From Acidobacteriota bacterium (GTDB lineage: Bacteria > Acidobacteriota > Vicinamibacteria > Vicinamibacterales > CAVVIG01): a DNA stretch of 34,643 nucleotides. The notes beneath the pieces were generated by a model that was given only the letters and a program-made list of their open reading frames with translations, made no database searches and was not told the origin of the DNA. Location of the stretch: contig JAHFUL010000016.1 in NCBI GenBank assembly GCA_023265155.1, positions 1 to 34,643 on the forward strand, written 5' to 3'. Position numbers and translations under genes: made by a program. Positions 4,117-34,266 of the stretch are shown here, piece by piece (the first letter of the stretch is position 1; each line of letters starts with the position of its first letter).

Positions 4117-4829
4117 TCTTCCCCGTCATCGTCTTCATGGCTGGCCTGACGTTGGCCGCTGCTCAGGATCCGGCGACGCCGCAGCCTGCCGCAATCGTCA
4201 CCGGCGGAGAAGCCCTGGTGAGCCGCGCACCCGATCAGGCGTTTGTGACCGTCGCCGTCGAATCGCGCGCCAGGAGCCCGCGTGATGCGCAGGCGCAAAA
4301 CGCGGCAGCGATGACCGCGGTGCAGCAGCGCATCACGGCGTTGGTGTCGGGTGCGGCGCCGGTCGTGACGAAAGATGCACTGCGGACCGAGGGGTACACG
4401 ATTCAGCAGGAATTCGACTTCGTGAACGGCCGCCGGGTGCCGCGCGAATACGTCGCGCGAAACGGACTGGAGGTTCGGCTGGACGTGGTGGAGCGCGTCG
4501 GCGATGTGATCGACGCAGCCGTGCAGGCAGGCGCCACCTCGGTGAGCAACATCAGATTCGACCTGAAGGATCGCGCTGGCGCGGAACGCGAGGCGCTGCG
4601 GCTGGCGGTGGTCGATGCCCGCGGGCGCGCCGATGCGGCAGCCGCCGGCGTCGGACGGACCGTGGACCGCGTGCTCAAAATCGAAGACCATCGCCAGCCA
4701 CCTCCCATCCCACGACCGGTGATGATGGACTTTGCGCGAACCGCTGCTGCCGCCACGGTCGACACACCCGTGGAGCCAGGCACGATCGAGATCCGCGCCC
4801 AGGTGACGCTGACCGTGACGCTGAAGTAG
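4104..4829 (+). CDS. SIMPL domain (DUF541) protein with signal peptide
   Basis: MRSMIFPVIVFMAGLTLAAAQ signal-like N-terminus; IVTGGEALVSRAPDQAFVTVAVESRARSPRDAQAQNAAAM...TSVSNIRFDLKD. Overlaps upstream gene by 13 nt. Confidence 0.85.
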   Translation: MRSMIFPVIVFMAGLTLAAAQDPATPQPAAIVTGGEALVSRAPDQAFVTVAVESRARSPRDAQAQNAAAMTAVQQRITALVSGAAPVVTKDALRTEGYTIQQEFDFVNGRRVPREYVARNGLEVRLDVVERVGDVIDAAVQAGATSVSNIRFDLKDRAGAEREALRLAVVDARGRADAAAAGVGRTVDRVLKIEDHRQPPPIPRPVMMDFARTAAAATVDTPVEPGTIEIRAQVTLTVTLK

Positions 4830-4915
4830 GCCCGAGTTTGCAGGCCCGAGCTGTAGGCCCGAGCTGTAGGCCCGAGCTGTAGGTCCGAGCTGTAGGCCCG
4901 AGCTTTAGCTCGGGC
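4827..4915 (+). repeat. ~13-bp tandem direct repeat TAGGCCCGAGCTG (about six copies) ending in a palindrome GCCCGAGCTTTAGCTCGGGC
   Basis: Read directly; the array starts at the TAG stop codon of the SIMPL gene. Confidence 0.9.
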
Positions 4916-4944
4916 GGCTGAGGCTGAGCGATTGGCGATGACTC

Positions 4945-5036
4945 GCCCGACCTCAAGGTCGGGCCTACGATCGGATGTGCCCGACCTCAAGGTCGGGCCT
5001 ACGATCGGATGCGCCCGACCTCAAGGTCGGGCCTAC
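4945..5036 (-). repeat. three copies, 34-bp period, of palindromic GCCCGACCTCAAGGTCGGGCCTAC + GATCGGATG(T/C)
   Basis: Units start at 4945, 4979 and 5013; opposite orientation relative to the preceding array. Confidence 0.92.
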
Positions 5037-5040
5037 ACTC

Positions 5041-5694
5041 ATGACCCCAGAAGATTACGCCCGCGCGCGCCGCCTCCTGATGCGGCGCGATCCGATCCTC
5101 GGCGCCGCGATCAAGCGTATCGGCCCTTGCGGTATGGCAGAACGCCAGCACGCGGATCACCTCAGCGCGCTCACTCGCTCGATTGTCAGCCAGCAGTTGT
5201 CGACGAAAGCCGCCGCGACGATCTTCCGGCGATTCGCCGCGCTCTTTCCCGACAACGCCGTCACGAGCGCGCACGCCATCGCGCGCTTCGACGATGCGAC
5301 GCTGCGCGGCGTGGGATTGAGCGGTCAGAAGGTCGGCTATCTTCGCGATCTCTCCGCACGGATCATCGACGGCCGTCTGGAGCTCGATGCGCTCGACCGT
5401 CTTCCCGATGAAGAGGCAATTGATCGGCTGACATCAGTCAAGGGGTTTGGACGCTGGACCGCGGAGATGTTCCTGATGTTCCGGCTTCATCGGCCTGACG
5501 TGCTGCCCGTCGGCGACCTGGGCATCGTCAAGGCGGTGCAGCAACTCTATCGCCTCAGGAAAAGACCCGACGCGAAGCGGCTCCTGAAAATCGGCGAACC
5601 CTGGCGCCCGTACCGATCGGTCGCCTGCTGGTACCTCTGGCAGACACTTCACCAGCCGGCGCCCTCGCCAACGATCAACCGCACGAAGAAGTAG
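5041..5694 (+). CDS. DNA-3-methyladenine glycosylase II, AlkA-like (HhH-GPD)
   Basis: HLSALTRSIVSQQLSTKAAATIFRRF, VGLSGQKVGYLRDLSARI, LTSVKGFGRWTAEMFLMF (HhH), LPVGDLGIVKAVQQLY, WRPYRSVACWYLWQ. Confidence 0.92.
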   Translation: MTPEDYARARRLLMRRDPILGAAIKRIGPCGMAERQHADHLSALTRSIVSQQLSTKAAATIFRRFAALFPDNAVTSAHAIARFDDATLRGVGLSGQKVGYLRDLSARIIDGRLELDALDRLPDEEAIDRLTSVKGFGRWTAEMFLMFRLHRPDVLPVGDLGIVKAVQQLYRLRKRPDAKRLLKIGEPWRPYRSVACWYLWQTLHQPAPSPTINRTKK

Positions 5695-14051: not shown

Positions 14052-16079
<2,028 letters not shown>

Positions 16080-16097
<18 letters not shown>

Positions 16098-16797: not shown

Positions 16798-16902
16798 CCT
16801 AGCAGTCCGTGGCGCAAGTGCGTTGCCGCTCGAAGAAGGGGTCAGACCCCTTGCGACGGCCGACAACAAAGGGGTCAGACCCCTTCTTCTGCCTGCGCCT
16901 GG
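16798..16902. repeat. 105-bp dispersed element, copy 1 (REPIN-like, two inverted GGGGTCAGACCCC units)
   Basis: CCTAGCAGTCCGTGGCGC...GAAGAAGGGGTCAGACCCCTT...AAAGGGGTCAGACCCCTTCTTC...GCCTGCGCCTGG; near-identical to 31188-31292. Confidence 0.9.
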
Positions 16903-19170: not shown

Positions 19171-19584
19171 TTATGGCTCAACGCCTGGAAAATCTTTTCG
19201 GGCCGCCACGAGATCAGGCGGCGCGATGTCGCTACGACACTGCGTGGAGCCGAGAAACAGCTCGAGTCCCTGGTCGATGCCGGCGAGCTCGCTCGACGAC
19301 ACCTGTCCAAAGATGCGGCGGATGCGCCGCTTGTCGATTGATCGGAGATGATCGACGAGGGCGGAGGACGCCCTCGTGAGGCCGCTCGTTCCGGGTGACA
19401 GGGCAGGATAGAGCGCGCCCACGCCAGCCGTGCCGGTCACTGGTACTACCGCGATGAGGGGAAAGCGTCGATCCGAATTGACGGAAGGATCGCTCACCGC
19501 GATGCAAGGCCGCACGCCGCGCTGCTCGTGACCCACCGCCGGATCGAGCTCGACGAGCACGACGGTGCCTCGATCAAGGGTCAC
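19171..19584 (-). CDS. PemK/MazF-family endoribonuclease toxin
   Basis: TLDRGTVVLVELDPAVGHEQRGVRPCIAVSD...FPLIAVVPVTGT...LRSIDKRRIRRIFGQVSSSELAGIDQGLELFLG. GTG start at 19584 assumed, overlapping the antitoxin stop. Confidence 0.88.
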   Translation of the reverse strand: MTLDRGTVVLVELDPAVGHEQRGVRPCIAVSDPSVNSDRRFPLIAVVPVTGTAGVGALYPALSPGTSGLTRASSALVDHLRSIDKRRIRRIFGQVSSSELAGIDQGLELFLGSTQCRSDIAPPDLVAARKDFPGVEP

Positions 19585-19883
19585 GCGGTCTCTTTCACCC
19601 AGCCCTGCCCTTCGACCCAGCGAACGGCCGTCCCTCCCGCCACATCGACGAGCCCGCCCTCGTCGGGCAGGTCGGCGGTCCAATCTCCCAGGCCGGTATC
19701 AGCCAAGTCAGCTGTCTCGGGATGCGGGTTACTCACCGAGTTGAGGAGCGACTCGCGACGACGACGGGCCAGCTCGTGCTCAACGGCTTCGGCGATGAAG
19801 CGGCTGCGGTTCCGTTCGAGCCGGTCGATCCCCTTCACCAACTCGGCAGCCAACGTAACGGTGACACGTTCCGTCGTGTTCAT
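19581..19883 (-). CDS. ribbon-helix-helix antitoxin of MazEF-like module
   Basis: MNTTERVTVTLAAELVKGIDRLERNRSRFIAEAVEHELARRRRE RHH pattern; 4-nt overlap with MazF-like gene. Confidence 0.85.
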   Translation of the reverse strand: MNTTERVTVTLAAELVKGIDRLERNRSRFIAEAVEHELARRRRESLLNSVSNPHPETADLADTGLGDWTADLPDEGGLVDVAGGTAVRWVEGQGWVKETA

Positions 19884-21517: not shown

Positions 21518-24500
21518 CTAATTGAACTGAACCCGCGTCAGTTCGCTCAGGAGCATGTTCCGGTTCGCCGCCGACACGGCCGCGTGCTCGATGTAGTTCT
21601 GGGTGCCCGCATACGACCAGCGATTCGTGAAGTCTCGTGGAAGCGATGCAAGGAACGTGGACAAGTCCTCTCTGGCCAGGCCGGCAGCCGTCTGGTCGCC
21701 TTTTAGGACCAGCGCGGCAAGGGCGATGAACCTCGCATTGAGCGCCGTTTCGTTGATTTCCGGCGTTGCGTTGGTTGGGACGTTGCGCAGGACCTCCTCC
21801 GCAAGCCGGGCGGCCTCGTCATACTTGCCGGCGGTCAGGCTGGCCTCAGCCAGATTCGCGTCGAATTCGAGCGGGTCGAAGTCGTCCGACGGCTGGGAGG
21901 AAACCTTGTCGGTCAGCGTCCTGAGGCTCGAGAGGATTCGATAACTGGCGTCGTACGACTGTGGGTCTGTCAGGGCTAACTGTTCGTGAGCCCGGAATTC
22001 GAGCTCGAGTCCAAGCGTGAACAAGTCGGGCACGCTCTCGGGCTCAACCTTGGTGTCGCCCACGGCAGCGAGTCCTTTCCAGAAGTCGGCCTCAGCGCTT
22101 GGGTATTCCGTCATGCTGAAGGCTGCCAACCCGCGGCGGCCGTATACCTTTGCGACCAGAATCCTGCCGCGCGGCGCACGGGGATCATCTCCGAGCACCT
22201 TCTGCGCGAGGCGCAGGGCCTGGTCGTAGTCCGACTCCCCCAGGAAGTACTCGAACCGAAGCAGCGGGTCGGCGCGCTCGGTCGCGCGATCAACGGCGGT
22301 GCGGAGATCCGAGGGGAGCGCGGGGCTGTGGCTCAGTTCGCTCAACAAGTGCAACGGCGCCACGCCGGCGCTGTCGATGCTCCCAAGGGCGTTGATAGCA
22401 TCCAGCCTGAGACGGAGCTCGGGATCATCGGCTGGCGACGGCTGAACTTCGCCCGGCCTGCGGCGCGTCGGACCGGGGCGTTCCACGAATTCTTTCAGCT
22501 TCGCCGCGGCCTGCGGCGTTCCAATCTGCTGCAACGCATCGACCGCGAGCTTTCGCGAGACGGGATTCAAGCCGGAGTTGCTGAGCAATTCTTGCACGGA
22601 GGTTTCGAGCTCCGGCAGTCTGGATTTCCCTTGAACGGCGGATGAAGCTCCGAACACCCTCGGCACGATGCTGAGGATCTCGTTCAGGACCATTTCGGCA
22701 GTTATCGGATTTTCTTCATCGGCGAGTGCCGACAGGAGGCTGGTGGCGGCCATCCTCGAAACCTGTTTATTGCCCGACTTCGCGAGGCCCTCCAATCTCT
22801 TGAGTGCCTCGACGCGGGGGTCGCCTGGAGTCGCCCCCGGTTGAACGATTGGCTGCAGGAGGCGCTGCAGGAGGGAGTCGGGCGCGGGTTCTCGTTGAAC
22901 GATCTGCAGCAGGTGCTCGGGTGTGTTCTGCGTGTATCGGTACAGAACCCCGATGTACGCGCCGAGCACCAGCACCGCGATCACCATCAAGCCCAGAAGA
23001 GGCTTTGGCCAGACAGAAAAGCGGAAATTCCAGAGCGACCGGACATAACGAAGGCGCCCGCGCCAGCCGAGCGTGGGCGCCACGGTCCGCAGGAATTCGA
23101 CCGAATCGGCGTCCGGACGCCAGGCCATGATCCTCAGCAGGCGCGCGCGCGTGGCTCCGTCACCCTCCGGCCAGAGTCCGCGCAACGCGTCCCGCATGGC
23201 GCTTCGATACTGCTGCGCGATCCGCGTAGCCCACCGCACTTGCTTCCTATCGGAGCTCCGCAAGGCATCGAGGACGTTCGCCGAGGCCGCTGGATTTCTC
23301 AGGAGCTGGGAATAGACGTGGTCGATCCTGAGGCGGATCTGGCGCCGGTCGCGCCAGAAGAACGTCTCCAGCAGCACCGTTCCGATGCCGGTGATGTACG
23401 AGATGGCGAGCAACGAGTACCCGGCAATCGTCAACGCCCTGGGAACGAAGCGGATGGTTGAGGAGAGTTGATCGAAGCCGACGAGCGTGCCCTCGAAGAA
23501 GTAATCAAAGCTGACCAGCAGGAACAGGCCCACGGCCTCGAAACCGATGAGGACGAGACCTCGACGCCCTCTTCTCGCCAGCATGCTGGCCAGACCGTGA
23601 AAGAAGAAGAAGAAGGTCACGACGTCGAACGCGAACAGGACCGCGCCCAAACGTTTTCGGTACCGGCTCTGACGGACCCCGTCAAGGCGCTCGCTGAGCA
23701 GGATCTGAGTGGGTCTCAGGATACCCACCGACCAGGTGGACAGCAACAGCAGCAGACCCAAGGCCTCCGCCTCCCCTTGGCTCGACCACGCGAAGAGCGC
23801 GAAACCGGCGCCTTCGATCACCGTCAACGCCACGGCAAACCTCACGCGTCCGATGGTCGCGAGAATCAGCCCGTGAATCACGAAATTCAGCAGCACGGTG
23901 ATTGCCGCCACTCCGGTCTGCGCCAGCGCAATGAACGCGGAGGCCGGCGAGAGTGACAGCTGCGGCCGCCGCGTCGAGTCCCGAGGCTGCTTCAACCGCT
24001 CCAGCACGCGGCGCGACGAGACGCTCGAGCCCGCGCGACCCAACGCGTGGGCTGCCCCCTCCCGATCCTCGGCGTCTTCGTCCTGCAGCGCGATGCCGAG
24101 CAGCGCGTCGGCCGACTGTGTCGTGCCTTGACGGCTCAACGCGTCGATGGCTCGGCTGCGCGCGGCGAGGTCCTCCGCGGGCGCGTGGTTGCCGATGATC
24201 CGGACGAGGCATTCGACGGTGTCATCGTCGGTGAAGATCCGAAGCCCATCGATCGCCTGCAATCGGTACGGGCTGCTCTTCTGTTGGACTTCTTTGATCA
24301 GGGATGCTCTGAGGTCCGAGTCCTTGATGGCGTCCAGGCTGTCGATCGCCTGCGCCCGGACGGCCTCGTCCGGGTCGCGAAGCGCCAGCAGATGGAGCGG
24401 GTCCCGCACCTCCGGCCGGGCGAACTCGCGTAAGCGCCCCGCGGCCCGCCGCCTGACGTCTGCCCGCGAGTCGCATAGCGCGTCCAGCAGAATCTCGACG

Positions 24501-25744
24501 TTGACCTCGGGATCTTTCACGCGCCGCAGCCAGTGCTCGGTGGCGCCTGCGAGGAGGTCATTCTCGTACGCCAGCGAGCAGCGAAGCATCAGCGCGGCTT
24601 CCTCGGGGTCGACGATGAGCGCGCTGCGATGCGCGTGCACCTTCTTGAAGCTCTGCTCGGAGAGGAGCGCGTCGCCGTCCGCGAAGTGCCGGACGCCCTG
24701 CCGCAGAATCCATCGCGACTGCTCGGCGGCATCCGCCTCCCGCTGCGCCCTGGCTTCGGCCGCCGCGACGAGCTGGCCGGGCACGACGTCGAAGCCGCCG
24801 TCGGAGCTCGCGCGCAGGATGCGCCGGTCTTCTTTCAGCCACCCCAGCACGCGCGAAGGCACGTCCATGGGGACGTCAAATCGATGGGACACGTCGGTGA
24901 GGTCGACAGGCTGCCCTCGGCGCACAGTCACGACCTGCTGGAGGACGGCCCAGCCGATTTGCGGCTCTATCGAGTCGGGCAAACGCTCGAACACGAAGTC
25001 GAGGTGCGCCTCCAGCATACCGGTGAGGCCGCCGACGGCCTGATGGTCCGCCTGGGCCAGCTCCCGGTCGACAACCTTGGATCGGCAAAGCTCGAACGCC
25101 AGGACGGCCACCACCTCGGGATTGAGTCCGGCCTTCGTCCGCACGCTCTCGAGGTCATGCGCCAGCGCTTCGAGAAAGGCGGTGGACACCCGAACGCCGC
25201 ACGGGCCGATCGCGTGTGCGAGGGACTGCAGGAGCCGGGGCTGGGACATTCCCGGGATCTCGCCGACATCGTCCAGAAGCCGGGGGATCGAGCCACGAAG
25301 CTGAAAGAGGGCGCTGAGGTGATCCTCTTCCAGGATCAGCACGACCCTGGCTCGGCCACGTTGCTCCGCACATCGCGACAGACGCTTGAGCAGGTTGCCG
25401 CGAAGAGGCTCGTCCGCGACCAGCCACCGCTCGAAGTCGTCCCACACCTCGATGACCGGCGAGTCCGGGTCCGTCGCTGCCGCCGCCATCTCGCCGGAGC
25501 CTCGATACGCCACGCGCCAACCGAGTGCGTTTTCGTTCAGCACCGGAATGACGTATCGCTGGATGAGCTCGGTCTTTCCCGATCGGCGCGGGCCGTGAAA
25601 CACGATGATCGGGGCGTCGCTGCGGAGAATGTGCTCGGCCAGGGCCTTGCCCTCGTCGGGCCGCTCGATCCAGAGCTCGTCCGATGCGAGCAGCTCGTCG
25701 AGGAAGACCAGCTCGCCCGACGGTCGGGGCGCGGCGGGAGTCAT
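21518..25744 (-). CDS. large P-loop ATPase with HEAT-like repeats, ~7 hydrophobic segments and C-terminal HEAT/TPR-like region (~1408 aa)
   Basis: APIIVFHGPRRSGKTELIQRYVIPVL (Walker A), VIEVWDDFERWL; HEAT-like DPEVNVEILLDALCDSRADVRRRAAGRLREF...DPDEAVRAQAIDSLDAI; hydrophobic stretches such as TVLLNFVIHGLILATIG, GLLLLLSTWSVGIL, PLLGLMVIAVLVLGAYIGVLY; C-terminal repeats. Start at 25744 (ATGA overlap). Confidence 0.82.
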   Translation of the reverse strand: MTPAAPRPSGELVFLDELLASDELWIERPDEGKALAEHILRSDAPIIVFHGPRRSGKTELIQRYVIPVLNENALGWRVAYRGSGEMAAAATDPDSPVIEVWDDFERWLVADEPLRGNLLKRLSRCAEQRGRARVVLILEEDHLSALFQLRGSIPRLLDDVGEIPGMSQPRLLQSLAHAIGPCGVRVSTAFLEALAHDLESVRTKAGLNPEVVAVLAFELCRSKVVDRELAQADHQAVGGLTGMLEAHLDFVFERLPDSIEPQIGWAVLQQVVTVRRGQPVDLTDVSHRFDVPMDVPSRVLGWLKEDRRILRASSDGGFDVVPGQLVAAAEARAQREADAAEQSRWILRQGVRHFADGDALLSEQSFKKVHAHRSALIVDPEEAALMLRCSLAYENDLLAGATEHWLRRVKDPEVNVEILLDALCDSRADVRRRAAGRLREFARPEVRDPLHLLALRDPDEAVRAQAIDSLDAIKDSDLRASLIKEVQQKSSPYRLQAIDGLRIFTDDDTVECLVRIIGNHAPAEDLAARSRAIDALSRQGTTQSADALLGIALQDEDAEDREGAAHALGRAGSSVSSRRVLERLKQPRDSTRRPQLSLSPASAFIALAQTGVAAITVLLNFVIHGLILATIGRVRFAVALTVIEGAGFALFAWSSQGEAEALGLLLLLSTWSVGILRPTQILLSERLDGVRQSRYRKRLGAVLFAFDVVTFFFFFHGLASMLARRGRRGLVLIGFEAVGLFLLVSFDYFFEGTLVGFDQLSSTIRFVPRALTIAGYSLLAISYITGIGTVLLETFFWRDRRQIRLRIDHVYSQLLRNPAASANVLDALRSSDRKQVRWATRIAQQYRSAMRDALRGLWPEGDGATRARLLRIMAWRPDADSVEFLRTVAPTLGWRGRLRYVRSLWNFRFSVWPKPLLGLMVIAVLVLGAYIGVLYRYTQNTPEHLLQIVQREPAPDSLLQRLLQPIVQPGATPGDPRVEALKRLEGLAKSGNKQVSRMAATSLLSALADEENPITAEMVLNEILSIVPRVFGASSAVQGKSRLPELETSVQELLSNSGLNPVSRKLAVDALQQIGTPQAAAKLKEFVERPGPTRRRPGEVQPSPADDPELRLRLDAINALGSIDSAGVAPLHLLSELSHSPALPSDLRTAVDRATERADPLLRFEYFLGESDYDQALRLAQKVLGDDPRAPRGRILVAKVYGRRGLAAFSMTEYPSAEADFWKGLAAVGDTKVEPESVPDLFTLGLELEFRAHEQLALTDPQSYDASYRILSSLRTLTDKVSSQPSDDFDPLEFDANLAEASLTAGKYDEAARLAEEVLRNVPTNATPEINETALNARFIALAALVLKGDQTAAGLAREDLSTFLASLPRDFTNRWSYAGTQNYIEHAAVSAANRNMLLSELTRVQFN

Positions 25745-27573
25745 GCGATCGGCTCTGGGAACCGATCTTCCCTGATGTCGGGAAAATGATTCCTGATGAA
25801 TTCGACGATCTGTCTCGTGTTGCGTCCGGGGTCGCAAATCATTTTCAGGAAGCTTCGAATCAGGCGCCGCTCTTCCGTGGAGAGATCATCGAGGAGATCC
25901 ATCAGGCTGCTGTTGTCTTTGATGGAGTCCAGCGCGGCCCGCAGGCCCGGGGCGGGCAGTTGGTCGTATCCCTCCCATTTGGGAAGGAAGCCTCTCGCCA
26001 GGTAATAGCAGATGGTTTGTACGTGCGCGAGCGTGAACGACTGGTCGCCACGCTTCAAGCCCTCCCGGTACTCGTTACTCAGCGTGGTGATCAAGTCGGG
26101 GTCGAGCGCGACGTCTCCCTTGCGAGCCGCGTACCTGATGATGCTGGCCACCCGCTCGGGAGGCAAGGGGGGAATGTCTGCGGGATCTTCAGGACGCTTC
26201 AACGAGATGAAGAGCTTTGAGAACGCATTCTCGTCGACGGCGATGAACACGAACACCAGACGCTCGTCCGCATGCTTCAGCAGACGGCCCGCCAAATCGA
26301 GAATGGATTTCTTCTTGTCCGGAGACTCCTGAGCCGCCCGGGCCGCTCGCTCGAACTGATCCAGGAAGATCACGATGCACTTCGAGGTCAGCGTTTTGAG
26401 GCGTGGCAGCAGGGTCTCCCACGCCTCGTCGTCGACGGAGAATCGTGCCTTCAGGGCCGCCCGAAGCTGTGGCTCGACATCCTGCTTGCAGCGAACGTAG
26501 ACGCACTCATACTCGTACTTGTTCGCGTCCTTCCCCCGCCTTGGCTTGAGGGGCTTGAGGAGATAAGGAGTGAGTCCGGCGCGAATGAAAGACGTCTTGC
26601 CCACCTTCGGTTTGCCGGAAAGAAAGAGCGCCGGGGGCGGCACGCCTTCGAACAGCTTCAGTACTTTTCGCGTCAGCTTTCGTCGTCCGAGAAACCAGAG
26701 CTGCTGATCTTCCTGGTAGTGGTCGAGGAACTTGAAGCTGTTCTGCCGCGTCCGCGCCGTCGAAGCCTCGACCGGCGTGGTCAGCTGGCGATGAAGCGTC
26801 TCGACGAAGTCGTCGAACTTTCCAAGGTCCCCGCCGATGACCCTCTCCAGCGAGCGCCTGCGGGACAGGAGCCCCTTGACGTTCTCGACTGCGCCGGAGG
26901 GATTGACGTAGTAGATGTCTCCGCCGCCTTTCGACGGGTCGAAGGCCCGCCGCAAACACTCGTCGTTGAACGCGTATCCGCAGATGACGATGTCGCGGCT
27001 GGTCAGATCGCTGATCACTTTCTCGAGATCCGGCGGATAATTCAGCATCTCCTCCTTGGAAAACAGGAAGTAATCCGAGGATTGCAGGCTCCCGTGCATC
27101 TTGAGGATCTTCACGCGGGGCTCTCGGCTCTGCACCAGTTTGGCGATGCTCTGCACGTCCGTCTCGCCGCGAATAATCGTTTTGTAGTCCGTGAACCCCG
27201 CGTCGTCCAGCGCGCGTTCGAGGAGGCGATCGAAGTTGAACGTGATGACGACATCGAAGAATCCGCGCTGAATGAGCTCGGCGAGCCGATGGTATCCGCT
27301 CGACGGCGGGCGGTTCAGGTACGGTTTCAGCCAAAGCCCCCGGTTGGCCTCGCTGCCAGTGCGCCAGAGCTCGTCGAAGCGATCTTCTATCGTGTCGGCC
27401 GATGCCGTCTGGGTGGCATATGTCGAGACCAGCTCCTCCATGATGGTGGCGGTCGGCTTCACGCCGGAGCTCAGCGACGCTCCAGCACCGAGCATGAGCA
27501 CGAAGCTCTCGCCCGCGGTCTTCTTGAGATTGAGGAGCTGTGCCAGATTCCGAATTCTATCCAGCGTCTGCAT
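25741..27573 (-). CDS. SIR2-like NADase domain fused to STAND-type P-loop NTPase (610 aa)
   Basis: SIR2-like FVLMLGAGASLSSGV, DVVITFNFDRLLERAL, VKILKMHGSLQSSDY, IVICGYAFND; NTPase FLGRRKLTRKVLKLFEG...PALFLSGKPKVGKTSFIRAGLTPYL (Walker A) and CIVIFLDQFERAA (Walker B). Confidence 0.87.
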   Translation of the reverse strand: MQTLDRIRNLAQLLNLKKTAGESFVLMLGAGASLSSGVKPTATIMEELVSTYATQTASADTIEDRFDELWRTGSEANRGLWLKPYLNRPPSSGYHRLAELIQRGFFDVVITFNFDRLLERALDDAGFTDYKTIIRGETDVQSIAKLVQSREPRVKILKMHGSLQSSDYFLFSKEEMLNYPPDLEKVISDLTSRDIVICGYAFNDECLRRAFDPSKGGGDIYYVNPSGAVENVKGLLSRRRSLERVIGGDLGKFDDFVETLHRQLTTPVEASTARTRQNSFKFLDHYQEDQQLWFLGRRKLTRKVLKLFEGVPPPALFLSGKPKVGKTSFIRAGLTPYLLKPLKPRRGKDANKYEYECVYVRCKQDVEPQLRAALKARFSVDDEAWETLLPRLKTLTSKCIVIFLDQFERAARAAQESPDKKKSILDLAGRLLKHADERLVFVFIAVDENAFSKLFISLKRPEDPADIPPLPPERVASIIRYAARKGDVALDPDLITTLSNEYREGLKRGDQSFTLAHVQTICYYLARGFLPKWEGYDQLPAPGLRAALDSIKDNSSLMDLLDDLSTEERRLIRSFLKMICDPGRNTRQIVEFIRNHFPDIREDRFPEPIA

Positions 27574-27595
27574 TATGTCGGGAGTCGAGGGCGGT

Positions 27596-27624
27596 AGTAT
27601 TACTGTTCACTCATGCGGTGTAAA
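27596..27624 (-). promoter_or_regulatory. possible internal promoter TTTACA-N17-AATACT upstream of the SIR2-STAND gene
   Basis: Within the only sizeable gap (138 nt) of the cluster; weak -10. Confidence 0.25.
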
Positions 27625-27711
27625 GAGCTCATGGGCGGCGAGCGCTGATCGCAGCTCACGACGCGCGGATGGAACTTCCGCAGGAGCAGCAGGCGAACCG
27701 CACGGCGGAGT

Positions 27712-29019
27712 CTACGCGATTGCCGTTCGAACGGCGTGGGCGACCTGCTTGCCGGTCACGTCGCCGTGGCTCTTGATGAAGTCACTCGCTTCAAGGTTGA
27801 AGAACACGCCGGCTCTGAACGCGTAGCTCGCGCCTGCCTCCAGCAATGTCCCTTCGATCGTTTCGCCGTTCTGCATCTGCTGGACGCCGTTGCGGCCGAG
27901 GCCACCGAAGACGTCGTTCTTGTCGCCGAACGCCGCCGCCTTGTCGCCGATGATTCGCGACGCCAACGGGTACGCGACGCCCACGGCTTTGTCGTTCGGC
28001 GTGTGGGTCACCAATATCGGGCCGCCGACCCGTTGTTGATCGACCACGCTCCGGAAGAAGCCATTCATCGTTTTCGAGAACCCGTTGTGCGAAAACGCCG
28101 TTTGCAGGAGCGACAGGCTCTTGATCTTGTTCGTGGTCGAGTTGGCGGCGGTGGCGGCGACGACGCGTCCTCCGAAGCTGTGACCCACGAGGTGAATGCG
28201 CTCGACCTTCAGCGCCAGCTCGTCAACCAGCTTGGCGACGCCGTTCTTCCCGACCGTTCCTGCTCGGGCCTTCATCTCGTAATACGTCGTGAAATTCAGG
28301 ACGTTCATGGCCGACGCCTTGAAGCCGGAGAGCGACTCCCTCAACCCTGCCGCTCCGCCCGTCTCCAGACCCGTGCTCCCGACGCCAAGCGGCAGAGAGG
28401 CGCTGCCGTCAGTTGATCCGGCGACTTCGGGATCGAGATCCTCTTCGTCGACTTTGAGGTTGTCCATCAGCTCATTGCCGTCGCTCTTGAAGAACGTGAG
28501 GGACGCGTCCTCCTTGTTCGCGGCCGATGGATCGAGCAGCGAGCGGATCGTGTCGACGAACGCACGGCGTGCGGAGGCGCTGTCCTCGAGCTCGGAGACC
28601 AGTGCCTGTGCTTCCTCGAGGATCTTCTGCTGCTCAGGGTCGGCGAACAGGTCCTTCATCCGATCGAGCTTCTCATCGAGCGCCCGGCGCGAGCGATCAT
28701 CCGCGGCGCCCAGACTCGCCGAGCCCTGGGCGTCGCCAGCCTGTCCCGCGACCGCCACCAGCTCGTCGAACTTCTTCGACGGCCAGATGACGCCGACGAT
28801 CCCGAATCTGCGGCCAGGCAGGTCGTTGGGCGCGCCGACTTCGACGAAGTTCGTGAAGAACGCTCGGTACATATTGCGCGCGTCGTCCGCGCTGTTGTTC
28901 CATCCGTGCGACATGACGAAGAGATCGGTGACGCCATCAGGGAGTGTCACGGCACTCTCGAGGGCACCGTTCTTGTCGAACCGCGCCTCGACGTAGGGAA
29001 TTCCAGAAATGTCGGTCAC
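27712..29019 (-). CDS. alpha/beta-hydrolase fold protein, no evident signal peptide
   Basis: TDLFVMSHGWNNSADDARNMYRAFF and VERIHLVGHSFGGRVVAATAA (G-H-S-F-G nucleophile elbow). GTG start. Confidence 0.8.
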   Translation of the reverse strand: MTDISGIPYVEARFDKNGALESAVTLPDGVTDLFVMSHGWNNSADDARNMYRAFFTNFVEVGAPNDLPGRRFGIVGVIWPSKKFDELVAVAGQAGDAQGSASLGAADDRSRRALDEKLDRMKDLFADPEQQKILEEAQALVSELEDSASARRAFVDTIRSLLDPSAANKEDASLTFFKSDGNELMDNLKVDEEDLDPEVAGSTDGSASLPLGVGSTGLETGGAAGLRESLSGFKASAMNVLNFTTYYEMKARAGTVGKNGVAKLVDELALKVERIHLVGHSFGGRVVAATAANSTTNKIKSLSLLQTAFSHNGFSKTMNGFFRSVVDQQRVGGPILVTHTPNDKAVGVAYPLASRIIGDKAAAFGDKNDVFGGLGRNGVQQMQNGETIEGTLLEAGASYAFRAGVFFNLEASDFIKSHGDVTGKQVAHAVRTAIA

Positions 29020-29050
29020 GAGACCTCCGTTTCGAGCCGTTTCACGCGGC

Positions 29051-30997
29051 TCAGATGGACTGGATCGTTCGCATCAAGTCGACGAGACCTGCACCCTGGA
29101 AATAACGGTCGCGGCGCAAGTCCGTCGCGCTCGACACGAACAGCTCCTTGACGCGTTCCGGCTTCCCGACGAATTCGCTGCGGACCGACAAAAACGCCGC
29201 GATCACGCCGCTGACGTGCGGGGCGGCCATGCTCGTGCCGCTGCTCTCGACGTAATCACACTCGCGGCCCTTCGCCCCCTCGGTTTTCAGCAGGCCGGTG
29301 GCGCAGGACAGGATCTTCTCGCCCGGCGCGACGAGGTCCGGCTTCAATCGTCCGTCGCCGGTCGGCCCCTTCGATGAAAAATACGAGACGCCGTACACGT
29401 GCGGCATGTCGCGATGCGTGGAGCCCACCGTGATGGCGAGGTCGGCATTGCCGGGGTCGTTGATGGTCAGCGCCATGCCGGCCGAGGTCGCGCCGATGGA
29501 CGACTTCAACGTGCCGTACCCGGTGTTCCCGGCGGCGACCACCACGACCACGCCCGATTTGACCAGCCGGTCCACCTCGACGCAGAGCGGACTCTGCCCG
29601 CACGCAAACCATTCGGGCTCGAAGTTGTAGCCGAGGCTCATGTTCACGCCATGGATGATGAGCCGGCGACCGTAGCCGTTCCTTTCCTGCACGTGGGCAA
29701 TCGCCGCAATCAGGTTGCTGACCGACCCTTTTCCGTTCTCGTCGAGGACGCGCAGACTCACGAGCTGACATCGCGGGGCCATCCCGCTCGCGCCCTCGAG
29801 GCGCGCCCCCCGATACTCGGTGTCCCCCTTCTCGTTCAGAGACCGGGAGACGGCGGTCGGCCGCTGTGCTTCGGGCGCATCGGGTGGGACGCGCCATTCT
29901 CCCGCGATGATCCCGGCCACATGCGTCCCGTGGCCGTTCTCGTCGTCGAACGGCCCGGCGCCATCGGTCGTGAAGTCCTTGTGCAGCGGCGAATTCGGAT
30001 CGACGTTGGCGTATTTGGCGAAATGCCGGTGATCGTGCTTGATGCCCGAGTCCATCACCGCCCACGTCACGCCTGCGCCATGCGCCGAAAATGAGTTTTG
30101 CGCCGCGTCGGCCTTGACCGTGGCGATCGACTTGTTGATGCACGCGGACACATCGAAATCTGGCCAGATGTGAAAGATCGCCCGGTACTTTCGTGCGTCG
30201 ATCGTCGCCATGATGGTGGGATTGGTCGTCGCCCCGCGGCGCTTGTCCGCCTCGACCTCAGCCTGCGCGATGTCCAGTTCCACGAGTTTGCGGATGGTCC
30301 GCGCTTCCAGCCGGGCGAAGAGGTACTGGCTGTTGGGATTGTCTTTCTCCCAGTGCAGGTCCTGTCCCGCGTCGCGGACGTCGGCCTGTGCTTTCGCAGG
30401 CTCGATGTGGTCGACCACCCACCGCCTCGCGGCTTCGCGGCCGCGCGGGTGCTCGAGATTGAGATCGATGATCACGTCGAATCGCGCCGGACCGAGCCGC
30501 GTGATCGGCTGCGGCCGGCCGACTGATCCCTCGCGCTCGTTTTCGTTGAGAATTCGTCGGACGACAGCCGCGTGGAGACGCGCGAACCCGTAGTGGCTCC
30601 CAGGCACGAGCGGTGCGATCGTCTGCACGGCGATCGCCTCGATCATCGCCTGATGCCGCTTCTCCATGCGTTCGCGTAATGCCTCGGGGGCCCTCTCGCC
30701 TTGCGCCGCCGACATTTTCGAGGCCTGCGTTGCGGCACGTCCTGCCATCTCCTGAACCGCTTGACGCGCCGCTTCGGCCCCACCGGGAAACCCGACGTTG
30801 TATTCGACGGCGGTATTGAACTCCACCACCGCCTCCGGGTGGTCTTTCATGATCGCGTTGATGGTGTCGACATCCTCCTGCATCGCCCTGAGCAGCGGCA
30901 GCGCAATCACCGTGCGGTCCAGCACGAGCGGATTGAACTGTTTCACCTTGAGGTGTTCTTCCAGGAGCCGGTGGGAGTCTGGTGTCAGGTCGTCCAT
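29051..30997 (-). CDS. S8 subtilisin-like serine protease, no evident signal peptide (648 aa)
   Basis: VTWAVMDSGIKHDH (Asp), ENGHGTHVAGIIAGEW (His), VESSGTSMAAPHVSGVIAAFL (Ser). Confidence 0.93.
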   Translation of the reverse strand: MDDLTPDSHRLLEEHLKVKQFNPLVLDRTVIALPLLRAMQEDVDTINAIMKDHPEAVVEFNTAVEYNVGFPGGAEAARQAVQEMAGRAATQASKMSAAQGERAPEALRERMEKRHQAMIEAIAVQTIAPLVPGSHYGFARLHAAVVRRILNENEREGSVGRPQPITRLGPARFDVIIDLNLEHPRGREAARRWVVDHIEPAKAQADVRDAGQDLHWEKDNPNSQYLFARLEARTIRKLVELDIAQAEVEADKRRGATTNPTIMATIDARKYRAIFHIWPDFDVSACINKSIATVKADAAQNSFSAHGAGVTWAVMDSGIKHDHRHFAKYANVDPNSPLHKDFTTDGAGPFDDENGHGTHVAGIIAGEWRVPPDAPEAQRPTAVSRSLNEKGDTEYRGARLEGASGMAPRCQLVSLRVLDENGKGSVSNLIAAIAHVQERNGYGRRLIIHGVNMSLGYNFEPEWFACGQSPLCVEVDRLVKSGVVVVVAAGNTGYGTLKSSIGATSAGMALTINDPGNADLAITVGSTHRDMPHVYGVSYFSSKGPTGDGRLKPDLVAPGEKILSCATGLLKTEGAKGRECDYVESSGTSMAAPHVSGVIAAFLSVRSEFVGKPERVKELFVSSATDLRRDRYFQGAGLVDLMRTIQSI

Positions 30998-31034
30998 GCT
31001 TTGGAGGCGGCTCTACGGCGACGGAGCAGCCGTG

Positions 31035-31062
31035 ATTATGGGCGGCGCGACGGAATTGTCAA
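31035..31062 (-). promoter_or_regulatory. candidate sigma70-like promoter TTGACA-N16-CATAAT for the four-gene cluster
   Basis: Minus strand TTGACAATTCCGTCGCGCCGCCCATAAT, ~38 nt upstream of the subtilase ATG. Confidence 0.5.
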
Positions 31063-31187: not shown

Positions 31188-31292
31188 CCTAGCAGTCCGT
31201 GGCGCACGTGCGTTGCCGCTCGAAGAAGGGGTCAGACCCCTTTGCGATGGCCGAGAACAACGGCTCTGACCCCTTCTTCTGCCTGCGCCTGG
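31188..31292. repeat. 105-bp dispersed REPIN-like element, copy 2
   Basis: CCTAGCAGTCCGTGGCGCACGTGCGTTGCCGCTCGAAGAAGGGGTCAGACCCCTTT...GGCTCTGACCCCTTCTTCTGCCTGCGCCTGG. Confidence 0.9.
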
Positions 31293-33420: not shown

Positions 33421-33622
33421 GCTGGGTCGAGCACTCAGGGTGAACCACCATGCTCGTTCGTGCGGCGTCGTCGAGGCGGCGCGAGCAGTTCCGGATTCGC
33501 CTATCGGGCGCTCCGGGGGCCGGCGATATCCTACGCGTCACCGAGACGCGCCATGCGCGCTCGAGTCACGGCATCGTCACCGCGTGCGCGCCGACACTGA
33601 ATGCGCGCAGCGACACTCCGAC

Positions 33623-34083
33623 TCACCGGTCCGCGCGGGCGCGAAGGATGTCGAGAGGACTTCGCGCCGGGTTGCGCAGGTCCTTCGCAACGTGGGTATA
33701 CACCATGGTCGTCTCGACGTTGGCGTGCCCAAGGTATAGGAGTAGTGCCGGGTTCTGATGCGCGACCGCAGTTGTTCGAGGGCCGCCAGCGGACCGGCCC
33801 GGCCGTGCTCGTCCACGATCGTGCTGCCTGACCGCCGATGCCAGTCGGTTCGCTGGAGGAAGTTGACGAAGTAGATGCGGAGGGCCTGTTTCAGCCTGGA
33901 GCACTTGCCAGTCCTGACAGCTGCCGCTCCGTTCTAACTCTTCGCGGAACCGCTGCACTTGATCCGCCAGCGGCTCGTTGGAGGCCTGACGCGTGAGAAC
34001 CGGCGCACCCAGCGCACGCAGTAGGGCGCTGCTTTCTCCTTCACAAGCTGCGCCTTGAGAAGGAACTCCCCGAATTGCTGCAA
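33623..34083 (-). pseudogene. integron-integrase-like tyrosine recombinase pseudogene, frameshifted and internally deleted
   Basis: Minus-strand fragments in different frames: LETSLQQFGEFLLKAQLVKEKAAPYCVRWVRRF / PLADQVQRFREELERSGSCQDWQVLQAE / QALRIYFVNFLQRTDWHRR...LEQLRSRIRTRHYSY / YLGHANVETTMVYTHVAKDLRNPARSPLDILRAR*. Confidence 0.78.
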
Positions 34084-34266
34084 CGACGTCTCAAGCTCTC
34101 GCAAGGCGCACCTCGGTCGTCACACGGGGTAACCGGCGTGCCAGATCGACGCCGACGCTGGAAGTGGCGAGCCGGCCAGCCCTTGTCGATCCGGCCGCAC
34201 GGGTCCCCCACGGCTGGTGCGGTGCGGCGGCGCTTGGCGGAAACCGACGTTGACGCGGACACCCGA

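Follow-up and report, generated by a model that had tools for sequence, protein, structure and literature searches.

A Conserved Subtilase–Alpha/Beta Hydrolase Gene Pair beside SIR2-STAND and Membrane STAND Genes in an Acidobacteriota Contig

Four consecutive minus-strand genes in contig JAHFUL010000016.1 of an Acidobacteriota bacterium (assembly GCA_023265155.1) encode a subtilase, an alpha/beta hydrolase, a SIR2-STAND protein and a membrane STAND protein (genes 1–4, Table 1), and the first two of these form a pair that recurs in distant bacteria. The window, that is, the whole stretch of DNA analyzed, comprises 34,643 nucleotides. An initial annotation had delineated the four genes with their gaps, their overlap and an upstream promoter-like element, all of which we find in the same places. 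Opposite-strand open reading frames (ORFs) within the block are high-GC antisense frames and were discounted as genes. Genes 1 and 2 are separated by 31 nt and genes 2 and 3 by 138 nt, while genes 3 and 4 share an ATGA overlap through which they are likely translationally coupled. Scanning the region for promoters gave 4 promoter-like sites versus 1.1 expected, with TTGACA-N16-CATAAT scoring best. The TTTACA-N17-AATACT site in the gene 2/3 gap is an addition to the initial annotation, which mentions the upstream element only, and would allow transcription of genes 3 and 4 apart from genes 1 and 2.

Table 1. Genes and sequence features of the four-gene block (window coordinates)
Feature	Positions	Strand	Length	Remarks
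Gene 1	30997-29051	minus	648 aa	S8 subtilase
Gene 2	29019-27712	minus	435 aa	alpha/beta hydrolase
Gene 3	27573-25741	minus	610 aa	SIR2 + nSTAND1 NTPase
Gene 4	25744-21518	minus	1408 aa, counted from ATG	membrane protein: diverged nSTAND1, HEAT, TPR
ATGA stop/start overlap, genes 3/4	25744-25741	minus		sequence gcATGActcc
Promoter-like TTGACA-N16-CATAAT, upstream of gene 1	31062-31035	minus		11/12 matches
Weaker promoter-like TTTACA-N17-AATACT, gene 2/3 gap	27624-27596	minus		9/12 matches
Gene 2 variable insertion, proposed gate/lid	28282-28776	minus	residues 82-246	from alignment and AF2 model

Profile searches bear out the domains first proposed for these proteins, namely S8 peptidase, alpha/beta hydrolase, SIR2 plus STAND, and HEAT. 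Gene 1 matches Peptidase_S8 in Pfam (3.5e-42), its catalytic residues D316, H356 and S589 are kept in 12 of 12 aligned homologues, and its N-terminal 265 residues contain repeated propeptide-like units of the form 'F.v.i.lN...GG..aAR'. With no signal peptide seen in its sequence, the protein is predicted to be an intracellular-type S8 subtilase; its AlphaFold2 (AF2) model, whose confidence is low to moderate (predicted local distance difference test, pLDDT, 60), has propeptide-bearing subtilisins as best matches in the PDB. Gene 2 matches Abhydrolase_1 (4e-6) and belongs to a family for which Pfam holds no entry of its own. The oxyanion motif H38-G39, the nucleophile S281 (GHSFG), D343 and H418 are invariant in 18 of 18 aligned homologues, and none of the 34 invariant positions in this alignment falls between residues 80 and 249, where a variable insertion is found (128–168 aa long across homologues; majority fraction 0.39 versus 0.56 for the core). 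The AF2 model of gene 2 (overall pLDDT 71) leaves this insertion partly unstructured, and a Foldseek search with it returned mostly alpha/beta hydrolases and lipases, at the level of fold only and none below an E-value of 0.004. Searching PDB sequences with the profile of the hydrolase yielded only chance-like matches, dodecin being the best, and these were discarded.

Gene 3 matches SIR2_2 (3.3e-11) and nSTAND1 (3e-15, 57 bits versus a cut-off of 27.1), and the failure of these two calls in profile searches, which the initial annotation had named as a reason to give up its proposal, did not occur. The SIR2 part carries the motifs GAGAS (residue 29), TFNFD (111) and KMHGS (158), the NTPase part Walker A GKPKVGKT (320) and Walker B DQFE (405). 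In an alignment with the NADase KomC, H160 coincides with H146, which is altered in PDB entry KomC(H146N), and in having a SIR2_2 domain with active-site Asn and His the protein is, by sequence criteria, a SIR2-type NADase. The nSTAND1 match stops at residue 600 of 610, with no C-terminal sensor repeats. Gene 4, initially described as a membrane HEAT ATPase, bears out that description in its HEAT repeats (HEAT_2, 4e-24; residues ~400–600) and its hydrophobic stretches (~605–654, 701–719, 729–747, 778–796 and 916–934), whereas for the ATPase Pfam gives a weak match below cut-offs (ATPase_2, 0.035) and membership in nSTAND1, given by Pfam for gene 3, is here given only by a small home-made profile built from homologues (5e-14). 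The NTPase motifs of gene 4 are GPRRSGKT (51) and WDDFE (101), and its C-terminus consists of HEAT and TPR. Because gene 3 is devoid of sensor repeats and gene 4 has repeats, the two ATGA-coupled genes may form one STAND machine split in two. We refer to genes 1 and 2 as module A and to genes 3 and 4 as module B.

Module A is the recurring part of the block. When 85,462 genomes were searched with gene 2, 13 loci emerged, distributed over Methylobacter, Azohydromonas, Nocardia, Mycobacterium, Mycobacteroides, Sinomonas, Gemmatimonadaceae, Eremiobacterota and Chthoniobacterales, and in 13 of 13 an S8 homologue lies directly upstream of the hydrolase. Plasmids of Rhizobium, Sinorhizobium and Rhodococcus show this arrangement too, as do additional genomes from the order and phylum to which the window belongs, such that the pair, in constant order and usually with a spacing of <60 nt, extends over at least five phyla plus plasmids. 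Pairwise divergences of subtilase and hydrolase co-vary (Mantel r 0.83, 0 of 9999 permutations), which reflects co-inheritance rather than contact because any two jointly inherited genes would correlate. In the hydrolase tree the window copy groups with Methylobacter, near the Rhizobium plasmids, and the pair has therefore been transferred across phyla. Its distribution is patchy, with 12 of 162 genomes in the window's order and, in the phylum of Azohydromonas, 1 of 299 genomes, which is the Azohydromonas genome itself. We consider it very probable that subtilase and hydrolase act together. Seeming fusions of the two in Sinomonas (L029) and Nocardia (L021) proved to be off-frame ORFs, since the translation contains the hydrolase alone and the subtilase is read in a different frame.

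Outside the main S8 group, relatives of the hydrolase adjoin CHAT or C25 caspase-like proteases, as seen in Gemmobacter, Planktothrix, Nostoc, Bradyrhizobium, Sinorhizobium terangae and a second Azohydromonas copy, some of these on plasmids; the Bradyrhizobium locus adjoins DUF499/DUF1156 genes and that of Sinorhizobium terangae lies near WYL and UvrD/PD-(D/E)XK genes. The window's order contains a hydrolase locus preceded at 27 nt by CHAT plus TPR-S, an operon of the order HEAT-hydrolase-C25-CHAT-NB-ARC (NB-ARC being a STAND NTPase) and a hydrolase-TIR fusion (L081:2-1636, G570 contig C850). The nucleophile motif of this fusion reads GHGYG, with Ser replaced by Gly, so that a pseudo-hydrolase is joined to an NADase-type domain. 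Judged from this motif, the hydrolase domain must act non-enzymatically, perhaps, to give one example, as a protease-cut regulatory or targeting domain, and the fusion is the least explained of our observations. In the window's own family, a hydrolase gene is followed after 49 nt by a TIR gene and an overlapping gene whose nSTAND1 product probably contains a membrane segment, and in another genome a broken hydrolase copy and a PDC-S65-type SIR2 gene (3.5e-102) are arranged divergently. The hydrolase is the common thread, around which proteases, NADases and STAND NTPases are exchanged.

Other arrangements at hydrolase loci were also noted. The order hydrolase, 450–608 aa protein, CHAT, ~470 aa protein recurs in several lineages (L015, L037, L087 and L089), and the proteins flanking CHAT in L015 and L087, as well as the first one of L089, have no Pfam match. 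At L062 a catalase-like gene, identified by eye, lies upstream of a hydrolase homologue, and the opposite strand carries a DUF7379 alpha/beta hydrolase; at L034 and L039 peroxidase-family genes are likewise annotated within a few kb.

The initial annotation did not recognize the four genes as a named system, and our searches agree, as no full-length match to a named defense component is found in PADLOC or NCBIfam; for gene 1 the best result there is a generic 'subtilase' model. Kaur et al. 2020 (PMC7159879) describe conflict systems in which a caspase is always accompanied by an alpha/beta hydrolase. In the MoxR-vWA (VMAP) ternary and GAP1-N1 systems of that study, as here, a protease lies beside an alpha/beta hydrolase, the two being thought to act jointly within conflict systems driven by NTPases, but there the protease is of the caspase superfamily and accompanies a MoxR-vWA-VMAP or GTPase core, whereas here an S8 protease lies beside SIR2-nSTAND1. 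The likeness to the hydrolases of Kaur et al. is one of pairing pattern. The fixed-order VMAP-MoxR-vWA triplet of the ternary systems is absent, the four proteins having no vWA, MoxR or VMAP match and the flanking genes scanned here belonging to other families. Gated nucleases activated by proteases are described by Tuck et al. 2025 (PMC12799240), and their pairs in Hachiman, AVAST, Lamassu, DRT and canu resemble ours in combining an insertion-bearing effector with a co-evolving partner protease and in being exchanged between systems. Both also draw on alternative protease classes (trypsin and caspase there; S8, CHAT and C25 here). The effectors differ: where those pairs have an MBL-fold nuclease, whose cleavage sites have been demonstrated, beside a trypsin or caspase, here an S8 protease adjoins an alpha/beta hydrolase, the cleavage of which is a prediction.

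Turning to module B, KomC, DSR2, Thoeris ThsA and the candidate PDC-S65 possess, like gene 3, a SIR2-like domain with catalytic Asn/His motifs, and PDC-S65 is the best PADLOC match of gene 3 (1.7e-22, SIR2 part only). Unlike the SIR2 defense proteins named, gene 3 combines its SIR2 domain with nSTAND1 and precedes a gene for a membrane STAND-HEAT protein, and it scores 25.5 bits with the NCBIfam Dsr2 model versus a cut-off of 1400. Avs/AVAST proteins, like gene 3, carry an effector domain on the N-terminal side of a STAND NTPase, but they unite effector, STAND and a C-terminal TPR-like sensor in one protein, whereas gene 3 is sensor-less, the repeats and membrane segments reside in gene 4, and no Avs model matched. 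Gene 1 in turn is reminiscent of IetS from IetAS, an S8 peptidase in an NTPase-containing locus, but scores 45.4 bits versus an NCBIfam cut-off of 900, and no IetA-type partner was recognized; with the type VII secretion system (T7SS) mycosin model TIGR03921 it reaches 93.6 bits versus 278.75. None of the four proteins has a gasdermin match in Pfam or PADLOC.

Taken jointly, we tentatively read the locus, at somewhat less than even confidence, as a mobile and perhaps protease-gated pair (module A) attached to a SIR2-STAND/membrane-STAND module (module B). Subtilase and hydrolase, which are inherited together, would form a mobile effector pair, with the hydrolase made in a restrained form, its active site covered or misplaced by the variable insertion. 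The subtilase, itself with a propeptide-like N-terminus, would cut the hydrolase upon activation, and the freed hydrolase would attack an ester substrate, most likely a membrane lipid, to the harm of the infected cell. As expected of a protease-gated effector, the hydrolase co-varies with its protease (Mantel r 0.83) and bears a variable insertion (residues 82–246), and we regard action of the protease on the hydrolase as slightly less likely than not. In module B, the sensor-less SIR2-nSTAND1 protein would be complemented by the membrane-anchored nSTAND1-HEAT-TPR protein of gene 4, which would supply the sensor repeats. Ligand binding by gene 4 would assemble the STAND proteins and switch on NAD+ hydrolysis by SIR2, and the same assembly would trigger module A, giving two lethal outputs, loss of NAD+ and ester hydrolysis. 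The SIR2/STAND domains and the conflict-system character suggested at the outset are supported, the active sites are intact, and a role in phage or other conflict is probable.

A number of observations weigh against this scheme. The initial annotation had proposed the four genes as one candidate system and had called for a check of their co-occurrence, with absence outside close relatives as a reason to abandon the proposal, and the outcome comes near to that: the exact set was found nowhere else, no gene 3 or gene 4 homologue is linked to any other subtilase-hydrolase pair, and no full-length relatives of either gene were found in 297 genomes of the phylum, 27 genomes of the family and the plasmid collection. 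A promoter-like site lies in the 138 nt that separate gene 2 from gene 3. The insertion in gene 2 is modeled too poorly (block pLDDT 26–87, mostly <75) to show the active site as blocked. A universal role of hydrolysis as output is called into question by the GHGYG fusion copy, which cannot be active as a hydrolase. The excess of TIR neighbors (2 among 13 loci versus 0.015 expected from TIR gene numbers in the respective genomes) favors the scheme, but is an optimistic figure that leaves out the clustering of defense genes, and both TIR-linked copies lie at contig ends, where an S8 partner is undecidable. Many stand-alone pairs are found among metabolic genes (Rhizobium pRL11, pRsp_Pop5_4 and Nocardia), and no relatives were found in phage records or viral contigs.

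Some of these points fit a chance juxtaposition of two independent cassettes, a lone subtilase-hydrolase pair with a SIR2-STAND/membrane-STAND defense pair inserted downstream, which we rank as nearly as likely as the reading given above. Stand-alone pairs are the commonest arrangement and tight ATGA coupling is restricted to genes 3 and 4, again in keeping with separate origins. On the other hand, the same hydrolase family lies directly beside TIR-nSTAND1 in a same-family genome, where a functional analogue of the present arrangement (hydrolase beside NADase plus nSTAND1) recurs once; it is fused to TIR in one genome and shares an operon with STAND, CHAT and HEAT in another, and TIR adjacency exceeds what TIR density predicts. 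Because there is no orthologous co-occurrence and what recurs is the pair, and the hydrolase with changing partners, the proposed link of module B to module A rests on the analogy of TIR for SIR2 and on adjacency, and whether the modules are one system appears to us evenly balanced. Gene 3-like matches at L016, L017 and L018 were considered as instances of SIR2 plus long-protein synteny and rejected, their neighbors being methylases, helicases and restriction-like genes, and matches to gene 4 in the phylum are HEAT-only except for an OmpR-nSTAND1-HEAT protein.

Ordinary intracellular housekeeping by module A, as proteolysis and esterase chemistry with no part in conflict, would suit the Rhizobium plasmid pairs flanked by transport and thiamine genes and the lack of the pair in phage records and viral contigs, but is improbable given its patchy distribution, its transfer across phyla and the company of CHAT, C25, TIR, SIR2, nSTAND1, NB-ARC and TPR-S, which are typical of conflict systems. 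An artifact of misassembly or gene decay is very improbable: the metagenome-assembled genome is fragmented (66% complete, 114 contigs) and the block is bordered by palindromic repeats and a decayed sequence of integrase type, but the four frames are long and open with motifs intact, composition is smooth over the block (G+C 0.61–0.69) and the gene 1–2 junction recurs in many unrelated genomes.

Interest centers less on the four-gene block than on the hydrolase family, whose proteases are interchangeable. That conflict systems pair caspases with hydrolases, and that proteases can activate nucleases, is known already; new are the S8 proteases and the SIR2/TIR-STAND contexts, to which the published pairing is hereby extended. 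In light of Tuck et al. 2025 (PMC12799240) the family is a concrete candidate, because of its co-divergence with the protease, its variable insertion, its three protease classes and its exchange between NADase and STAND partners. Going further, the family might add to gasdermins and MBL nucleases another, undescribed kind of death effector under protease gating, a proenzyme resembling lipases that is freed by any one of S8, CHAT or C25 and shuttled as a pair between unrelated NADase/STAND alarms, here parallel to NAD+ depletion by SIR2 under one STAND-membrane sensor, but this we deem speculative and rather unlikely. The subtilase and hydrolase constitute a defined minimal pair open to experiment.

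Further features were noted around the block. About 2.5 kb upstream of it, close to the contig end, lie frameshifted remains resembling an integron-type tyrosine integrase (window 33531-34119, minus strand, several frames), which were read by eye from GHANVETTMVYTHV...RSPLD and have no match in Pfam. The REP-like palindrome AAGGGGTCTGACCCCTT occurs as paired copies 33 nt apart at window 31226-31275, immediately upstream of the gene 1 promoter, and at 16836-16885, with 8 matches over both strands versus 0.04 expected. On the other side, ~2 kb from gene 4 and past a PQQ-type propeller gene, is a PemK/MazF-like toxin gene (PF02452, 2.6e-19; window 19171-19883) with a small antitoxin-like ORF upstream. 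Farther away, an HscA/DnaK-like gene (14052-16097) belonging to an Isc-type iron-sulfur cluster contains a 48-nt in-frame tandem repeat (window 14935-15099), and an intergenic stretch (window 4826-5046) holds a 13-nt repeat array followed by three 34-nt repeats bearing the palindrome GCCCGACCTCAAGGTCGGGC.

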